DNA of 64,000 nt from Gammaproteobacteria bacterium (GTDB lineage: Bacteria; Pseudomonadota; Gammaproteobacteria; Pseudomonadales; JADFDG01). The translations under genes were made by a program, and so were the position numbers. Location of the stretch: positions 1-64,000 of the forward strand of contig JADFDG010000018.1 of the NCBI GenBank assembly GCA_018262975.1, written 5' to 3'. Position 1 is the first letter of the stretch. Each line of letters starts with the position of its first letter. The notes under the pieces were generated by a model. The model worked only from the letters and a program-made list of their open reading frames with translations, had not been told where the DNA came from and made no database searches. Below are positions 4,243 to 64,000 of the stretch, piece by piece.

Positions 4243-5457
4243 ATGAGCGCCCACAAGTGGCAATTCGCTTCCCGTTTTCGCCGGCATGCCTTTGGCTGGC
4301 GGTCCGACACGCCGGTGCAGCGGATCAAGGAAGCCATCACTGAGATCAAGCAGGTTGCCCGCAAGGAGCCTGTAATCGCGGCTGAGGGCGCCATTATCCT
4401 GCTGGAAAAGCTCTCCCCGGCGCTGGAACAGGTGGACAGTTCATCGGGCGCACTGGGTTCGGCTGTCAACAAGGCCATCGATACCCTGGTGCCCATCATC
4501 GTCAAAGCTGATGTCGAGCCGAAGCTGCGCCAACGCTGGCTCGAACGCTTGTGGCAAGCGCTGCAGGACGACGAAATGCCCTACATCGAAGTGCTCGGCG
4601 ATTACTGGGGCGAGTTGTGCGTGACGCCGGAGCTGGCATCGCACTGGGTCGATGAGTTTTTGCCGGTCGTCGAGAGCGTGTGGAGCCCAAATGCATCGGG
4701 GCACGGATTCTTTAAGGGCACCAGCGCTTGCCTGGCATCCCTGTACGCGGCGGGTCGGCACCAGGAACTGTTGGCGTTGCTCGACAAGGCACGGTTCAAG
4801 TGGTGGCACGACCGGCGCTGGGGTGTGAAGGTATTGGCAGCGATGGGCAGGAAGGCAGAGGCAATCCGCTATGCCGAGGAATCGCGCGGTCTCAATGATC
4901 CTGGCTGGCAGATTGCCCAGGCCTGCGAAGAGATCCTGTTGTCCTCCAGTTTGCACGACGAGGCCTACCGCCGCTATGCCATCGAGGCAAATCAGGGCAC
5001 CACGAATCTGGCGACGTTTCGCGCCATCGCCAAGAAGTATCCCCACAAGCAACCGGAAGAGATCCTACGCGACCTGGTAGCCAGCACGCCTGGCGCCGAG
5101 GGCAAGTGGTTCGCCGCTGCCAAGGATGCGGGCCTGTTTGATGTGGCGATCGAGCTGGGCACGCGCAGCCCGACCGATCCACGCACGCTGACGCGCGCTG
5201 CCCGTGACTACGCCGAGAAGCAGCCAGCATTCGCGCTCGCCGCAGGCCTCGCCGCGTTGCGTTGGATCTCTCTTGGACACGGCTATGAGATCACCGGCGC
5301 TGATGTGCTCGATGCTTATTCGGCAGTCACGCAGGCGGTACCGAATGCGGGTGTTCCAGCCCAGCTGGTTAACGAGCAGATCCGGGACATGATCACCAGC
5401 ACCCAGCCCGGAAATTCGTTGATGAAGACCATCCTCACCCGTCATTTGTCGAACTGA
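4243..5457 (+). CDS. Unrecognised 404-aa alpha-helical protein downstream of ImmA
   Basis: It starts at ATG 4243, 17 bp after the protease gene, so it is probably the third gene of the XRE operon. The protein is soluble and almost entirely helical. Residues about 130-330 contain TPR-like helical hairpins (AAGRHQELLALLDKARFKWW, AAMGRKAEAIRYAEESRG, SLHDEAYRRYAIEAN), suggesting a solenoid that binds another protein. No catalytic motif is visible. A Trp/Arg-rich N-terminus (HKWQFASRFRRHAFGWR) is notable. I do not recognise the family. Its position suggests a sensor, adaptor or effector tied to the repressor/protease pair, but this is inference. Confidence 0.7.
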   Translation: MSAHKWQFASRFRRHAFGWRSDTPVQRIKEAITEIKQVARKEPVIAAEGAIILLEKLSPALEQVDSSSGALGSAVNKAIDTLVPIIVKADVEPKLRQRWLERLWQALQDDEMPYIEVLGDYWGELCVTPELASHWVDEFLPVVESVWSPNASGHGFFKGTSACLASLYAAGRHQELLALLDKARFKWWHDRRWGVKVLAAMGRKAEAIRYAEESRGLNDPGWQIAQACEEILLSSSLHDEAYRRYAIEANQGTTNLATFRAIAKKYPHKQPEEILRDLVASTPGAEGKWFAAAKDAGLFDVAIELGTRSPTDPRTLTRAARDYAEKQPAFALAAGLAALRWISLGHGYEITGADVLDAYSAVTQAVPNAGVPAQLVNEQIRDMITSTQPGNSLMKTILTRHLSN

Positions 5458-5582
5458 AAGGGTCCCGCTTTTCGCAGCAACCCGCATCGGTTCGCACGAC
5501 TCCGAAACTCCCTCATGGTGTCGGCGGCAGTCAATCCGGACAATTTCACTGCATGTGAGTTTGACCGAGAGGACCGCCACCA

Positions 5583-5801
5583 ATGCATCAAATCAACCAT
5601 CTACCACCGGAGCGGATGACGCCGGAACAGCGTCGCCACGAGATCGCGTCGTTGCTGGCTAACGGCCTGGCACGCCTGCGTCTCACCGGCGTTGAAGAGT
5701 CCGCAAACAGGACCGAAGCGAGCGAGTTTGAGCTTGGCTTCTCTGGCAACCAGCGCGTTCATACAGACCCCGTCAACAAGACAACTACGGAGTCGAAATG
5801 A
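5583..5801 (+). CDS. Small protein heading the DUF2924/serine-recombinase cassette
   Basis: This 72-aa protein carries the motif MTPEQRRHEIASLLANGLAR near its N-terminus, a segment often seen in small proteins immediately upstream of DUF2924 genes. The C-terminal half is polar and poorly conserved in appearance. Its stop overlaps the next start as ATGA, the first of three such overlaps in the cassette. Its biochemical role is unknown; it may assist or regulate the recombinase. Confidence 0.7.
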   Translation: MHQINHLPPERMTPEQRRHEIASLLANGLARLRLTGVEESANRTEASEFELGFSGNQRVHTDPVNKTTTESK

Positions 5802-57703: not shown

Positions 57704-58558
57704 TCAGGATTTTCCGAGCGAAAACGAGACGTTATCGATCAGCCGGGTGCTGCCCAGACGGGCGGCGGTGGCAATCACCAGGTAGTCGTCGCTGGCCGCT
57801 GCCGGCTTGAGATCATGTCCGTTGCGGATGTCGAAGTAATCGATCACTAACCCGGCTGACTCGATGTTTGCTGAGGCTTCGGCTGCCACCGCGGCAAAAT
57901 CGCGGCGACCGCCGGCAATGGCATCGCGGGCCTGGCAGAGGCTGCGATAAATCACCGCGGCGGTCTGCTTCTGGCTGGCGTCGAGGTAGCCGTTGCGCGA
58001 ACTCATGGCCAGTCCGGAGGCCTCGCGTACGGTGGAAACGCCGATGATGCGTACCGGGAAGCACAGGTCGGCGGCCATGCGGCGGATGATCGCCAGTTGC
58101 TGGAAGTCCTTTTCGCCGAACAGGGCGATGTCGGCGGGCACGATGTTGAACAGCTTGCTGACCACCGTGGACACGCCGTCGAAGTGCCCGGGGCGCGACT
58201 TGCCGCACAGCGCCTCGCCCAGGCCCGGTACGTGCACCACCGTCTGCGTCTTGCCGGCGGGGTACATCTCGTCCACCGACGGGACGAACAGCAGGCTGCA
58301 GCCGGCGGCGGCGAGTTTCGCCGAGTCCTCGGCCAGCGTGCGCGGGTACTTGTCGAAATCCTCGTTCGGGCCGAACTGGGTCGGGTTGACGAAGATGCTG
58401 CACACCACGTGGCGTGCCTGCTTGAGGCCTTCGCGCACCAGGGTGATGTGGCCCTCGTGCAGGTTGCCCATGGTCGGCACGAACGCAACGCTGTCGCCGG
58501 CCTGTTGCCAGGCGCGCACCTGCGCGCGCACCTCGGCGATGGTGTGTACGGTTTTCAT
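57704..58558 (-). CDS. panC: Pantothenate synthetase PanC
   Basis: A 284-aa ligase joining pantoate and beta-alanine with ATP. The HIGH-type motif is VPTMGNLHEGHITLVREG (His34, His37). Conserved FVNPTQFGPNEDFDKYPRT and LFGEKDFQQLAIIRRM follow, and MSSRNGYL is present. It follows panB after 4 bp. Confidence 0.96.
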   Translation of the reverse strand: MKTVHTIAEVRAQVRAWQQAGDSVAFVPTMGNLHEGHITLVREGLKQARHVVCSIFVNPTQFGPNEDFDKYPRTLAEDSAKLAAAGCSLLFVPSVDEMYPAGKTQTVVHVPGLGEALCGKSRPGHFDGVSTVVSKLFNIVPADIALFGEKDFQQLAIIRRMAADLCFPVRIIGVSTVREASGLAMSSRNGYLDASQKQTAAVIYRSLCQARDAIAGGRRDFAAVAAEASANIESAGLVIDYFDIRNGHDLKPAAASDDYLVIATAARLGSTRLIDNVSFSLGKS

Positions 58559-58562
58559 CGGC

Positions 58563-59384
58563 TTATTCGAAGCAATGTTCGGCAGCAGGGAAGGAGCCGT
58601 CCTTTACGGCGGCGACGTAGGCGCGTACCGCGCCCTCGACGCCGTCGGTGCGGCCGGCCAGGAAATTCTTCACGAAGCGCGCCGGCTTGCCGGGCGACAC
58701 GCCGAGGATGTCGTGCAGCACCAGCACCTGGCCGTCGCACTCCGGCGCGGCGCCGATGCCGATCACCGGGATGTGCACCTCGGCCATGATCCGCTTCGTC
58801 AGCGCGCGCGGGATGCATTCGAACAGCAGCACGTCGGCGCCGGCGGCTTCCAGCGCCTTGGCGTCGGCGATGATGGCCTGTGCCTGCGCGTCGTCGCGGC
58901 CCTGCACGCGGTAGCCGCCGAAGGCGTTCACCGACTGCGGCGTCAGCCCCAGGTGCGCGCACACCGGGATCCCGCAGCGCTTGAGCGCGCGCACGGTATC
59001 GGCCAGCCAGCCGCCGCCCTCGATCTTCACCATGTGTGCGCCGGCGGCCATCAGCCGGCCGGACCACTGCAGGCATTGCTCGATGGTGGCAGTACCCATG
59101 AAAGGCAGGTCGGCCATGATCAGCGTGGTCTCGTTGCCGCGCTGCACGCAGGCCACGTGGTAGACCATGTCGTCGATGCTCACCGGCAGCGTGCTGTCGT
59201 GGCCCTGCAGCACCATGCCCAGCGAGTCGCCGACCAGGATCACGTCCACGCCGCAGCGCGACAGCAATGTGGCGAAACTGGCGTCGTAGGTGGTGAGCAC
59301 CGTGAACTTCTCGCCGGCGGCTTTCATCTTGGCCAGCGTGGCGACGGTGACCGGCTTGCGGGTGGCTTCGGACAGGTACGCCAT
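58563..59384 (-). CDS. panB: Ketopantoate hydroxymethyltransferase PanB
   Basis: A 273-aa TIM-barrel enzyme that adds a hydroxymethyl group to 2-oxoisovalerate. Signatures are [45 protein letters not shown] and [15 protein letters not shown]. Length is typical. It follows the deoxynucleoside kinase gene by 5 bp and precedes panC. Confidence 0.97.
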
Positions 59385-59389
59385 GGTCG

Positions 59390-60046
59390 TTACCTCGGGG
59401 CGGGGCCGGCCGGCAGGTCCAGGCGGCCTTCGCGGTGGCTGAGGATCAGGGAGACGAGGCGACTATAGTCGCCGTCGCTACCCACGAGGTCAATTTCGGC
59501 GGCATCCACCACCAGCAGCGGGCTGTCACGGTAGCCGGCAAACAGGCGGGCATAGCCGTCCGAGAGCGCCGCGAGGTAGTCGGGCGCGATGTCCTGCTCG
59601 CAGGCGATGCCGCGGCGGGCGATGCGTTCCTGCAGCACGTCCACCGGCGCGTGCAGCCAGATGACCAGGTCGGGCTTCGGCGGTTCATCCACCACGCGCT
59701 GCCAGATGGCGTCGTACAGGCGGAATTCGTCGGCATCGAGCGTCAGCGAGGCGAACAGCCGGTCCTTCTCCAGCATGAAGTCGCTGACGCGCACCGTCTC
59801 GAACAGGTCGTCCTGGCGCACCGCGCGCAACTGCTCCACCCGCTGGAACAGGAAGAACAACTGGGTCTGCAGCGCATAGTGGCGCGGCTCGCGGTAGAAA
59901 CGCTCGAGGAACGGGTTGTCGGCGGCGCCCTCCAGCAGCAGTTCGCAGCCGAAGGTCTGCGCCAGCCGCCGGGTCAGCGTGGTCTTGCCGACGCCGATGG
60001 TGCCTTCAACGGCAATGAAGCGCGGTGGCCGCGCGGTCTCGCCCAT
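59390..60046 (-). CDS. Deoxynucleoside kinase
   Basis: A 218-aa dCK/dGK-type kinase. The P-loop GTIGVGKT is at 15-22, the conserved ERF-type region reads [20 protein letters not shown], and [20 protein letters not shown] is the DRS-like segment. A lid with [12 protein letters not shown] follows. It phosphorylates deoxynucleosides for salvage; base specificity cannot be read by eye. It sits between folK and panB in an otherwise vitamin and RNA-processing operon. Confidence 0.88.
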
Positions 60047-60056
60047 CGGGAGGTGC

Positions 60057-60566
60057 TCAGTGCGGCAGCCGCAGGGCGCCGTCGTTGAACATCGGTGACG
60101 GCGCGCAGCGCGCCAGCAGGTCGCGCACCACGCTGCCGTCGGGCAGGGCCAGGTCCGGCGAGATGTCGGCCAGCGGCTGCAGGACGAAGCGGCGCTCGCG
60201 CACGCCCGGGTGCGGGATCACCAGGCGCTCGTGGGTGAAACGCTGGTTGCCGTACAGCAGCAGGTCGAGGTCCAGGGTGCGGGCGCCCCAGCGCTGCTGG
60301 CGCACGCGGCCCTGCGCCGCTTCGATTTCCTGCAGCGCGTCGAGCAGCGCCAGCGGCGCCAGCTCCGTGTCGATCAGCGCCACGGCGTTGAGGTAATCCG
60401 GCTGGTCGCTGCGCGGGTCATCCGGCAGCGTCATGGCCGGGTTGCGGTACACCGGCGACACGGCGCGCAGCGTGGTGCCGGGCAAGCGCGCCAGCGCATC
60501 CACCGCACGCTGCAAGTGCGCGCGCGGATCGCCGAGGTTGCTGCCAAGACCGATCCAGGCCTGCAT
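60057..60566 (-). CDS. folK: HPPK, folate pyrophosphokinase FolK
   Basis: A 169-aa enzyme that transfers pyrophosphate to hydroxymethyl-dihydropterin. The N-terminus WIGLGSNLGDPRAHLQRAVD and the signature RWGARTLDLDLLLYGNQRF, then LVIPHPGVRERRFVLQPLAD, are classic. It supplies the substrate of FolP encoded elsewhere in the window. It starts 6 bp after pcnB. Confidence 0.96.
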   Translation of the reverse strand: MQAWIGLGSNLGDPRAHLQRAVDALARLPGTTLRAVSPVYRNPAMTLPDDPRSDQPDYLNAVALIDTELAPLALLDALQEIEAAQGRVRQQRWGARTLDLDLLLYGNQRFTHERLVIPHPGVRERRFVLQPLADISPDLALPDGSVVRDLLARCAPSPMFNDGALRLPH

Positions 60567-60572
60567 GCGTGT

Positions 60573-61982
60573 TCAGTTGGCCGGTTTGCGCCGCCGGCGG
60601 CGTCGCTTGCGCCCCGCGTTGTCGCCGGGCTGCCGGCGCGCATCGAGCTCGCGCACCATGGCATGGCGTTCGTCGGTGTCGGCCTGCTGGTAGTCGCTCC
60701 ACCATTCGCCGAGCTGCTCGGCGAAGATGTCCTGCGGCTCGCGTGCCAGCGGGCCGGCATCCTCGCGCAGCAGCAGGAAGTCGTAGGCGGCGCGGAAGCG
60801 CGGGCTCTGCAGCATGGCCTCGGCGCGCTTGCCGCTGCGCCGCGGCAGGCGCAACTGCATGTCCCAGATCTCGCGCGCCGGCGCGGAAAACCGGCGCGGG
60901 ATGGCGACCACGCGGCACTGTTCGTCGAGCACCTGCTGGCCGGCCTGCGCCATGGCGGGAATGTCGGGCATGCCCTCGGCGAGCAGTTGCTGGTAGCGCC
61001 GGCTCACTTCCGGCCACAGCAGGGCGGCAAACAGGAAGGCCGGGGTGACCGACTTGCCGTCGGCGATGCGGCGGTCGGAATTGTCGAGCGCCGCGAGGAT
61101 GAACTTGCGTGCATTCGGGTCGCGGCGCGCCACGTGGCCGGCATCGGGGAACAGCACTTCATCCAGGCCGAACCGTTCCAGCCATTCCCAGCTGGCGTGG
61201 CCATAGCCGCCCAGCAGCAATTTCAGGACTTCGTCGAACAGGCGCGCCGGCGGCACCTGGTGCAGCAGCGGCTTGAGATGGGCGATCGGCCGGGCGGTGC
61301 CGTCATCAACTGTGAAGCCGAGCTTGGCGGCGAAGCGCACCGCGCGCAGCATGCGCACCGGGTCCTCGCGGTAGCGCGTTTCCGGGTCACCGATCAGGCG
61401 CAGACGCTTCTTTTCCAGGTCCTTCATGCCGCCCACGTAGTCGTGGATGGCGAAGTCGCCGATGTTGTAATACAGCGCGTTCACCGTGAAGTCGCGGCGG
61501 ATGGCGTCTTCCTCGACCGTGCCCCACACGTTGTCGCGCAGGATCATGCCGGTCTTGCCGTGCAGCGATGCGTCCTCGTCGTCCGCCACGTGGTCATCGT
61601 CACCGGTGTCGTCGGCGGCGTGATGGGCGCGGAAGGTCGCGACCTCGATGACGTCGCGGCCGAACAGGATGTGCGCCAGGCGGAAGCGGCGCCCCACCAG
61701 CCGGCAATTGCCGAACACCCGCTTGACCTGCTCCGGGGTGGCGTTGGTGGCCACGTCGAAGTCCTTGGGGTCGCCGCCGAGCAGCAGGTCGCGCACGCCG
61801 CCGCCGACCAGGTACGCCTCGTAGCCGGCGTCCTTCAGGCGATACAGCACCTTCAGGGCATGGGGACTGATGTCCTTGCGGGAAACGTTGTGGGCTTCCC
61901 GGGGGATGACGCGCAGTTCTGCCCGGGGGGGCTTGCTGCCATTGAATACGCGGCTGAGAAAGCCGACGAGGCGCTTGGGCAT
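60573..61982 (-). CDS. pcnB: Poly(A) polymerase PcnB
   Basis: The 469-aa product is taken from ATG 61982 (MPKRLVGFLSRVFNGSKPPR). The nucleotidyltransferase core reads LVGGGVRDLLLGGDPKDFDV, with catalytic Asp74 and Asp76, and RDFTVNALYYNIGDFAIHDY. Arg/Lys-rich residues end the protein (RKRRRRRRKPAN), typical of PcnB rather than CCA-adding enzyme. It adds 3' poly(A) tails that promote decay. It heads the pcnB-folK-dNK-panB-panC(-panD) operon and lies downstream of the CrcZ-like RNA, as in Pseudomonas. Confidence 0.95.
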   Translation of the reverse strand: MPKRLVGFLSRVFNGSKPPRAELRVIPREAHNVSRKDISPHALKVLYRLKDAGYEAYLVGGGVRDLLLGGDPKDFDVATNATPEQVKRVFGNCRLVGRRFRLAHILFGRDVIEVATFRAHHAADDTGDDDHVADDEDASLHGKTGMILRDNVWGTVEEDAIRRDFTVNALYYNIGDFAIHDYVGGMKDLEKKRLRLIGDPETRYREDPVRMLRAVRFAAKLGFTVDDGTARPIAHLKPLLHQVPPARLFDEVLKLLLGGYGHASWEWLERFGLDEVLFPDAGHVARRDPNARKFILAALDNSDRRIADGKSVTPAFLFAALLWPEVSRRYQQLLAEGMPDIPAMAQAGQQVLDEQCRVVAIPRRFSAPAREIWDMQLRLPRRSGKRAEAMLQSPRFRAAYDFLLLREDAGPLAREPQDIFAEQLGEWWSDYQQADTDERHAMVRELDARRQPGDNAGRKRRRRRRKPAN

Positions 61983-62065
61983 GTGGCTCGGCACGGGTGG
62001 TGTGGATGGAACGGCGGCAAGTCTACCAGCGGGGGGCGGGCCAGGCAGGCCCTGGCGGCCCCAAT

Positions 62066-62099
62066 AATGAAAACGGCGGGCCGGTTGCCCGGTCCGCCG
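62066..62099 (-). terminator. Second terminator of the CrcZ-like RNA
   Basis: Read leftward, CGGCGGACCGG-GCAA-CCGGCCCGCCG is an 11-bp stem with one A-C mismatch and a GCAA loop, followed by TTTTCATTATT. It ends about 85 bp before the pcnB start. Confidence 0.85.
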
Positions 62100-62317
62100 C
62101 TTCATGAGCTGTTTTTCTTGTTGGTCTCGCAGCCCGGGCTCGGGGCCCGGGTCAATCGGTGCCGGCTGTTGTTGTTATATACCGGTCACCTTCAATAAAA
62201 GAACCGAGGGATCTCTCCGTCGGTTCGTGCACTGCATTGGCTTCTGGTTGTTTTTCTTCTTCTGCGGTTGTTGTTGTTTTGGGTGCAGAAGCCAGAACTG
62301 TTGTTGTTATTGTTGCG
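62067..62317 (-). ncRNA. CrcZ-like small RNA (Hfq/Crc-sequestering)
   Basis: No convincing protein frame fills 61983-62500. Read leftward from a predicted sigma-54 start near 62317, the RNA carries five A-rich CA motifs: AACAATAACAACAACAG (62298-62315), CCCAAAACAACAACAACC (62266-62283), GAAGAAGAAAAACAACC (62246-62262), ATATAACAACAACAGC (62165-62180) and CCAACAAGAAAAACAGC (62108-62124). Hairpins lie between them (62193-62226, 62132-62152, 62074-62099). Repeated AAnAAnAA-type motifs bind the Hfq distal face with Crc. In Pseudomonas, CrcZ lies exactly here, between cbrB and pcnB, and relieves catabolite repression. The predicted 125 or 250 nt is shorter than Pseudomonas CrcZ (about 400 nt). Confidence 0.82.
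62193..62226 (-). terminator. First terminator-like hairpin of the CrcZ-like RNA
   Basis: Read leftward, GAACCGA, a 12-nt internal part containing a 2-bp helix, and TCGGTTC form a stem followed by TTTTATT. It could end a short (about 125-nt) form, with read-through giving the longer form. Confidence 0.7.
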
Positions 62318-62327
62318 ATGTAAATAA

Positions 62328-62344
62328 AGCAGGATGCGTGCCAA
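62328..62344 (-). promoter_or_regulatory. Sigma-54 promoter of the CrcZ-like RNA
   Basis: Read leftward, TTGGCACGCATCCTGCT matches the -24/-12 consensus TGGCAC-N5-TTGC with one change. GG (62342-62341) and GC (62330-62329) are separated by the required 10 bp. The predicted start is near 62317. It is upstream of the A-rich RNA and downstream of the enhancer-like inverted repeat. Confidence 0.85.
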
Positions 62345-62451
62345 CTTCGGGCTATTCTGTTATTTCCTTTAAAATCATTGGGTTGGCTGTCTGGTGGCTG
62401 CTCTTGCTACGTACAAGTGCGTAGGTCATGTTACTGAACTGCCGATGAGCG

Positions 62452-62476
62452 GTTACCTGATGTTTCGATCGGTAAC
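62452..62476 (-). promoter_or_regulatory. Probable CbrB enhancer site
   Basis: GTTACC (62452-62457) and GGTAAC (62471-62476) form a perfect inverted repeat with a 13-bp spacer, about 110-130 bp upstream of the sigma-54 promoter. A further GTTAC half-site lies at 62430-62434, and CTACG/CGTAG (62407-62411, 62420-62424) forms another inverted pair. The position is typical of NtrC-family enhancer sites. Binding by CbrB is inferred from context. Confidence 0.65.
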
Positions 62477-62500
62477 ACCAGTACCCCCTGAATTGGGGGG

Positions 62501-63843
<1,343 letters not shown>

Positions 63844-63847
<4 letters not shown>

Positions 63848-64000
63848 GCGTCTTGCTCCCTGTGGGATTCGGCGGGGCCGTCATCGGTGCCGCGCCAGCG
63901 CGGCAGTGTCAGCACGATGCGCGTGCCGCGCTGGGTGTCGGCTTGCGCGGGGCTCTCGATGGCGATATGGCCCTGGTGGTCCTCGATGATGCTGTATACC
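63844..64000 (-). CDS. cbrA: C-terminus of histidine kinase CbrA (partial)
   Basis: The last 51 codons of a sensor kinase enter from the right edge: [20 protein letters not shown], then [10 protein letters not shown]. This is the end of an HATPase domain (G2 region followed by the final strand). A polar tail ends in TGA, overlapping the cbrB ATG (ATGA). Coupling to cbrB identifies it as the partner kinase; the sensor and transporter-like domains expected of CbrA lie outside the window, so the symbol rests on context. Confidence 0.82.

Follow-up and report, generated by a model that had tools for sequence, protein, structure and literature searches.

The interval between cbrB and pcnB on this gammaproteobacterial contig raises the question of whether a CrcZ-type RNA is encoded there and, if so, which protein it would sequester. 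In P. aeruginosa, CrcZ (407 nt in PAO1) possesses six (ARN)n≥4 repeats, a motif that suits the distal face of Hfq, and titrates Hfq via that face; Hfq itself binds the A-rich start regions of mRNAs, with Crc in a supporting role (excerpts of PMC4063720). According to the excerpts of PMC6296734 and PMC8871633, CbrAB is confined to Pseudomonadaceae, and cbrA-cbrB-crcZ is known from Pseudomonas and Azotobacter alone. No description of CrcZ outside Pseudomonadaceae was found in the excerpts of the matches listed in the open-access literature, and the excerpted text of an Acinetobacter review (PMC5295007) named CrcZ in its reference list only.

Gene content of the locus

The window, i.e. the whole 64-kb stretch of DNA analysed, carried on its minus strand cbrA-cbrB, the intergenic region, pcnB and folK, followed by a deoxynucleoside-kinase-like gene, panB and panC; the identities of the last three, and of dksA and gluQRS further upstream, were read off the translations. 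All features located below lie on the minus strand. The cbrB gene (62501..63847) encoded a 448-aa NtrC-type response regulator and sigma-54 activator (Response_reg, Sigma54_activat and AAA lid domains) with 58-67% identity to the best 7 of its 80 matches (L001-L007, from Pseudomonas, Serpens, Gilvimarinus, Dasania and others). It was adjoined by the 3' end of cbrA (63844..64000), a gene that runs beyond the window to contig position 66837. Its 997-aa product possessed SLC5-STAC, PAS, HisKA and HATPase domains, the last two those of a histidine kinase, and residues 4-598 matched PDB entry 10ED (1e-217), which PMC13022988, in excerpt, names as the CbrXA SLC5-STAC structure of Pseudomonas. The locus thus encoded an adjacent CbrA and CbrB pair with the transporter and kinase domains of the CbrAB two-component system.

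The likely start of pcnB (60573..61982) was the ATG at 61982, residue 42 of a longer open reading frame whose first codon, at 62105, falls inside the 3' terminator described below; the alignment also began at residue 42 of the long frame or later in 20 of the 25 other loci that had a pcnB match. This ATG lay 85 bp beyond the terminator and in the same direction. The predicted RNA occupies the position of CrcZ, downstream of cbrAB and between cbrB and pcnB.

Enhancer and sigma-54 promoter

The CbrB subsites reported for Pseudomonas are TGTTAC (F) and GTAACA (R), ordered F1, R1, R2 and followed by an IHF site and a GG-N10-GC promoter (excerpts of PMC6296734). By that definition, the region possessed F1 as TGTTAC (62472..62477), R1 as GTAACC (62451..62456, read from the sequence) and R2 as GTAACA (62429..62434), whose GTAAC begins 91 bp ahead of the promoter TGG. 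The corresponding triple, GTTAC-N13..17-GTAAC-N15..19-GTAAC, matched once in the whole 3.3-Mb genome, with no match for the reversed control pattern. Across the order, at least 129 of 390 genomes had a match, but the reversed control also matched many genomes, so this count is not specific and the own-genome result, together with regions located individually, was used instead.

The putative sigma-54 promoter, TGGCACGCATCCTGCT (62328..62343), had the exact GG-N10-GC spacing and agreed with 11 of the 12 specified bases of what we take to be the sigma-54 consensus. One other score-11 site was present in the window, at 63324 on the minus strand within the cbrB coding sequence, where it is probably a chance occurrence; the plus strand had none. 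Between enhancer and promoter, an IHF-like site (62373..62385) matched, in opposite strand reading, 8 of the 9 specified bases of WATCARNNNNTTR, presumably the IHF consensus, a motif short enough for chance matches to be likely. No sigma-70-type promoter was found in 61900-62600. Overall, the F1, R1 and R2 subsites and the GG-N10-GC promoter stood at the spacing conserved among CrcZ-type loci. A preliminary description of this DNA had placed, between cbrB and pcnB and co-directional with them, an enhancer-like inverted repeat, a -24/-12 promoter with exact 10-bp GG-GC spacing and a transcript 5' end near 62317; gene order, subsites and promoter bear this out, and the same +1 is predicted from the -12 spacing.

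A second inverted repeat, CTACG-N8-CGTAG (62424-62407), lay between the enhancer and the IHF-like site and is not among the subsites given in the excerpts of PMC6296734.

Predicted RNA and its Hfq sites

The predicted CrcZ-like RNA spans about 250 nt (62067..62317), its start being set by the -12 spacing and its end by a terminator. Five putative Hfq sites were distributed along it: an (ARN)6 run at about RNA position +4 (62297..62314), a position common to Pseudomonas (L002), Serpens (L007) and many relatives; an (ARN)4 run in the loop of hairpin 1 (62267..62278); 17 nt of overlapping ARN runs, partly bulged, with a mean unpaired probability of 0.67 (62247..62263); an (ARN)4 run in the loop of hairpin 3 (62165..62176); and an (ARN)5 run in the linker ahead of the terminator (62108..62122). 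In the predicted fold, the mean unpaired probability was 0.83 for the ARN sites compared to 0.34 elsewhere, in line with the several (ARN)n≥4 sites in single-stranded RNA that are expected of a CrcZ-type RNA. The five CA-rich single-stranded motifs among hairpins reported previously correspond to these runs.

The plus strand of the window carried 16 runs of (ARN)n≥4 and the minus strand 12, among them the five of the RNA. Overlapping AAnAAnAA motifs were found 16 times on the minus strand, 11 of them starting within 62314-62119, and eight times on the plus strand. From the -12 base to 62106, five non-overlapping AAnAAnAA motifs were counted, compared to 0.45±0.62 in 200 shuffles (maximum 3). 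The predicted fold had a free energy of -92.3 kcal/mol (z = -7.18, or -6.52 without the 3' terminator). That terminator, a hairpin followed by a T run (62067..62105), was identified by both the terminator scan and the fold, against a background in which shuffles yield 1.2±1.2 such sites per region. An inner hairpin followed by TTTTATTG (62201..62226) was weakly terminator-like in the fold and absent from the scan list; of the two terminators claimed earlier, the 3' one therefore stands, while the inner one is weaker than described.

Recognition by the Rfam CrcZ model

Membership of the Rfam CrcZ family (RF01675) is defined by a covariance model match of at least 95 bits. The model gave no match in positions 58000-64000 of the window at E ≤ 10, none in the whole genome and none in the region downstream of cbrB (L143) at the gathering cut-off. 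At the relaxed cut-off of that window search, Rfam gave five matches, all to other families and far under their gathering scores. The positive controls were recognised, with 349.6 bits for Pseudomonas fildesensis (L002), 272.1 for Serpens (L007) and 306.8 for a Pseudomonas-like genome (G020, locus L111). When 33 sources, including all 25 regions with the full module defined in the next section, were searched at the gathering cut-off, 3 of the 25 were recognised. The preliminary description had warned that a primary-sequence search could miss the RNA, and the Rfam CrcZ model, proposed there as a check, does miss it. The new RNAs were judged by eye to be non-alignable outside the promoter and motifs.

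Recurrence across the order

The comparison covered 37 genomes of the order, one per family, and the genome studied here was the sole member of its family among all those listed, the search of 390 genomes included; 28 of them encoded CbrB at E ≤ 1e-150. These 28 genomes and eight named loci (L001-L007 and L010, from the 80 matches) provided 36 regions downstream of cbrB, of which 35 were counted after one (L133) ending at the cbrB stop had been dropped. A full module was defined as a sigma-54 site with a score of 9 or more, a GTAAC 60-100 bp upstream of it and an AAnAAnAA within 45 bases past the -12 base. It was present in 25 of the 35 regions, compared to none of the 35 on the opposite strand and 0.00 in dinucleotide shuffles (100 per region). 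The 25 comprised 20 families, the present one included, two Gilvimarinus, Dasania, P. fildesensis and Serpens; the named genera may overlap with some of the 20 families, and one of these (L111) is Pseudomonas-like by Rfam and by the CbrB tree.

Among the ten regions that lacked the strict module, two were cut by contig ends (L001 at 334 nt, L115 at 365 nt) and three looked like members by eye: L110 had a score-11 promoter and CA motifs with no GTAAC at the right distance, L114 had CA motifs and F/R sites with GT as its -12 element, and L135 had CA motifs and a promoter with a score of 8 by visual count. In the other five (L005, from a MAG named Pseudomonadaceae, L010, L112, L113 and L131) no module was seen; some of the ten were rearranged. 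The CrcZ-like module outside the usual Pseudomonas form, as claimed initially, is therefore present, but it is no one-off: the suggested survey of cbrB-pcnB regions in relatives found promoter, half-site and CA motif in many families across the order, in a geometry shared with Pseudomonas.

Within the scanned 60-100 bp, the distance from GTAAC to TGG was 78-82 bp for 21 values and 88-92 bp for 7, two classes that differ by about one DNA turn, and no value fell at 83-87 bp; the outlying distances of 67 and 100 bp belonged to extra half-sites in loci already possessing one at 81 and 78 bp, respectively. With 91 bp, the present locus belonged to the longer class, about one helical turn more than the 80-82 bp of L002, L007 and L111. 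The first AAnAAnAA was found 15 bases past the -12 base here, in Pseudomonas fildesensis and in Serpens alike.

Crc and the pyrE-linked protein

A PF03372 search of the genome returned five proteins, one of which adjoined pyrE, the position of crc in relatives. This protein scored higher against the exodeoxyribonuclease 2jc5_A, which we take to be from Neisseria, than against P. aeruginosa Crc 4jg3_A (308 and 260 bits, respectively). It possessed intact catalytic residues at all six positions checked. Two of these are Asp and Asn, in place of which P. aeruginosa Crc has Ser and Tyr150, and no sequence among the 31 of the Crc clade retains the pair. According to excerpts of PMC3662782, two of the four catalytic residues remain in P. 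aeruginosa Crc, for which no nuclease activity was observed. In a tree of 48 sequences, the Crc clade comprised 31 (support 100/99) and the pyrE-linked protein lay outside it.

The Hfq-Crc-RNA structures place K135, K139, R140 and R141 in contact with RNA and A78 in contact with Hfq (excerpts of PMC6422490). These five residues occurred together in 31 of 31 Crc-clade sequences, an invariance also found on a subset of 16 of the 31, and were A, T, T, R and H in the protein studied here. As K139-R140-R141 was also present in five ExoIII-type sequences (L147, L148, L150, L151 and L152), that patch alone is not diagnostic for Crc. No second Crc candidate was obtained from the genome with a profile of that subset of 16 Crc sequences, save for a weak match (3e-21). 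By sequence, the genome is without recognisable Crc and the gene at the crc position is of ExoIII type, so that the Hfq/Crc target assumed in the preliminary description probably does not hold for this organism.

The pyrE-linked protein might nevertheless serve as Crc with its nuclease residues kept, the RNA then being a decoy for an Hfq-plus-Crc complex as in Pseudomonas. Its place beside pyrE would fit, as would nine retained residues among the P. aeruginosa contact residues examined (A78, R137, R138, R140, E142, W161, R162, R229 and R233). The intact catalytic positions, the greater closeness to 2jc5_A, the position outside the Crc clade, the replacement of K135, K139 and R141, and the further differences at K155, E193, R196, R230, F231 and W255 argue against it, and we regard this role as unlikely. 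It has the decoy step in common with the preferred explanation, a decoy acting on Hfq probably without Crc, and the two are not exclusive.

Hfq, RpoN and other lineages without Crc

Both hfq and rpoN were present in the genome. No Crc-clade protein was found in 5 of the 25 full-module genomes, namely the present one, G016, G027, G031 and G032. The pyrE loci of G016, G031 and G032 had no Crc homologue within about 1.5 kb, and G027 possessed an intact ExoIII type near pyrE, like the genome studied here. As the completeness of the five ranged from 93 to 100%, a missing contig is possible for one genome and unlikely for all. All five Crc-less loci had the longer enhancer distance, compared to two of the 20 with Crc (Fisher p = 0.0004, uncorrected for kinship).

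Hfq was found in 18 of the 19 genomes searched, the exception (G002) being 75% complete. The motifs FDQYV and VP[AS]RNP were present in all seven Crc-less genomes (the present one, G016, G027, G031, G032, G034 and G037; VPSRNP in G032), and FDQFV in 11 of 11 Crc-bearing ones. Residue F25 occurred in all seven Crc-less genomes, the one studied here among them, and in three of the 11 with Crc; position 25 is Y25 in the Pseudomonas-like G020 and G038. The Hfq mutant examined in the excerpts of PMC4063720 is Y25D, not Y25F.

On the CbrB tree, the Crc-less sequences clustered, with 3 changes compared to 8.9-9.0 for shuffled labels; the labels include L005 as Crc-less without a genome search and G002 as Crc-less at 75% completeness, and the branch of the outgroup L010 is very long. 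Of the 33 inner branches 10 were starred and the base was unresolved; the tree does not decide between loss of Crc and Crc never having been present.

A-rich motifs at candidate target starts

In 400 kb, which is about 12% of the genome, a simple script called 203 SD-supported starts, and four of these carried AAnAAnAA at -35..+15; 0.95 were expected by letter shuffle, and an internal control stretch gave 1. None of the four looked catabolic by eye.

Proposed mechanism and alternative readings

With the DNA elements, their geometry and their recurrence across the order, with cbrA, cbrB, hfq and rpoN all present and no Crc-type protein found, the region very probably encodes a CbrB/sigma-54-driven CrcZ-type decoy for Hfq, acting here probably without Crc. 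From these elements we infer transcription, its dependence on CbrB, RpoN and IHF, Hfq binding and targets, the role of a CbrB-induced Hfq decoy being assigned by analogy with P. aeruginosa CrcZ. The transporter-kinase CbrA would phosphorylate CbrB, which would then occupy the three TGTTAC/GTAACA subsites while IHF bends the DNA, and would activate sigma-54 RNA polymerase to start at 62317. The resulting RNA of about 250 nt would end at the 3' terminator and expose five (ARN)n sites, located in loops and linkers; once abundant, it may fill the distal face of Hfq and so release A-rich mRNA start sites from Hfq repression. Since canonical Crc is missing from this genome, the probable ligand of the decoy is Hfq on its own or together with a non-Crc factor, and the repressive complexes would be weaker or formed with another partner. 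The order of the genes, the CbrB sites, the sigma-54 promoter and an architecture with several Hfq sites all agree with CrcZ, in keeping with the initial proposal of a diverged, shorter form of that RNA, through which carbon-catabolite control may extend to this lineage. Points that count against this reading are the missing Rfam match, F25 of Hfq in place of the Y25 of G020 and G038, the few motif-bearing starts, none of which looked catabolic, and the ten regions that lack the strict module.

A broader evolutionary reading is plausible, although we lean slightly against it. The CbrAB/sigma-54/CrcZ-like/Hfq circuit would predate Crc, the decoy would act on Hfq without Crc in the present family and four others, and the pyrE locus would here keep a catalytic ExoIII ancestral to Crc, the latter having arisen later, when a duplicate lost its active site.

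Apart from the ExoIII-type protein serving as Crc, considered above, the region could be read as the 5' leader of pcnB, formed by read-through of the hairpins, with the A-rich sites controlling pcnB via Hfq in cis. The shared direction, the 85 bp from terminator to ATG and the failure to find a sigma-70-type promoter in 61900-62600 would suit a leader, but the 3' terminator hairpin intervenes, a distance of 126-332 nt separates the ARN sites from the downstream pcnB ATG, which keeps them off its start site, and Pseudomonas crcZ at the same place is a separate transcription unit (excerpts of PMC8871633), which makes this improbable. Somewhat more improbable still is a relic in which promoter and RNA persist and the function of the circuit was lost along with Crc. 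The failure to find a Crc in the genome, or catabolic targets in the 400 kb examined, would suit a relic, whereas the enhancer, the promoter and all five ARN sites have stayed intact in a GC-rich genome (67% on contig C22), and the module is also kept in four other Crc-less families. CsrB-type RNAs are stem-loop arrays with repeated single-stranded motifs, a layout like the one predicted here, but a role in titrating some other protein, for instance CsrA/RsmA, or in encoding a small peptide, is barely credible, as the RNA has only two GGA (62218 and 62095), each in or at a helix, and its reading frames are, by inspection, low-complexity and N/T/Q-rich.

Comparison with known decoy RNAs and variants of the module

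The preferred reading, a CrcZ-type decoy acting on Hfq probably without Crc, can be set against known systems. The Pseudomonas RNA (RF01675; with CrcY and CrcX) is alike in its place between cbrB and pcnB, CbrB F/R subsites, GG-N10-GC promoter, IHF-like site, several (ARN)n≥4 sites and a CA motif at about RNA position +4. The predicted RNA differs from it in length (about 250 nt, compared to 407 nt in PAO1), in possessing five ARN sites rather than six, in lacking an Rfam model match and in belonging to a genome without canonical Crc. CrcZ and CrcY of Azotobacter vinelandii also possess A-rich Hfq motifs (six there), are raised by CbrA/CbrB and sequester Hfq-Crc; unlike the present RNA, they lie within Pseudomonadaceae and work with Crc (excerpts of PMC6292655). 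The Gilvimarinus (L003, L004) and Dasania (L006) regions possessed the same full module after cbrB, likewise with no Rfam match at the gathering cut-off, but encoded a degenerate Crc-clade protein by pyrE. CsrB/RsmZ-type RNAs titrate CsrA/RsmA through GGA motifs. They thus differ in protein and motif, and resemble the present case in principle, that of a many-site RNA titrating a translational repressor, a comparison also drawn in the excerpts of PMC4063720.

If the module spans the order, RNA titration of Hfq would be a general means of carbon control in a large group, missed by the Rfam model; should some lineages operate it in the absence of Crc, they would offer a natural test of what Crc contributes and of whether decoy RNA or co-repressor came first.

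Several loci departed from the single-module layout. Tandem pairs of CrcZ-like modules, in which either copy had a promoter and a half-site of its own, were found between cbrB and pcnB in Dasania (L006), which differs in this too from the present locus, and in L120 and L132. L123, from the Crc-less genome G027, possessed 56 overlapping AAnAAnAA in the 1.5 kb past cbrB, compared to a maximum of 32 in the others. In L010, a stretch rich in CA motifs (5330-5700) upstream of pcnB adjoined a distant (44%) CbrB-like regulator, with no recognisable sigma-54 promoter, and is possibly an RNA of CrcZ-like type under another promoter.
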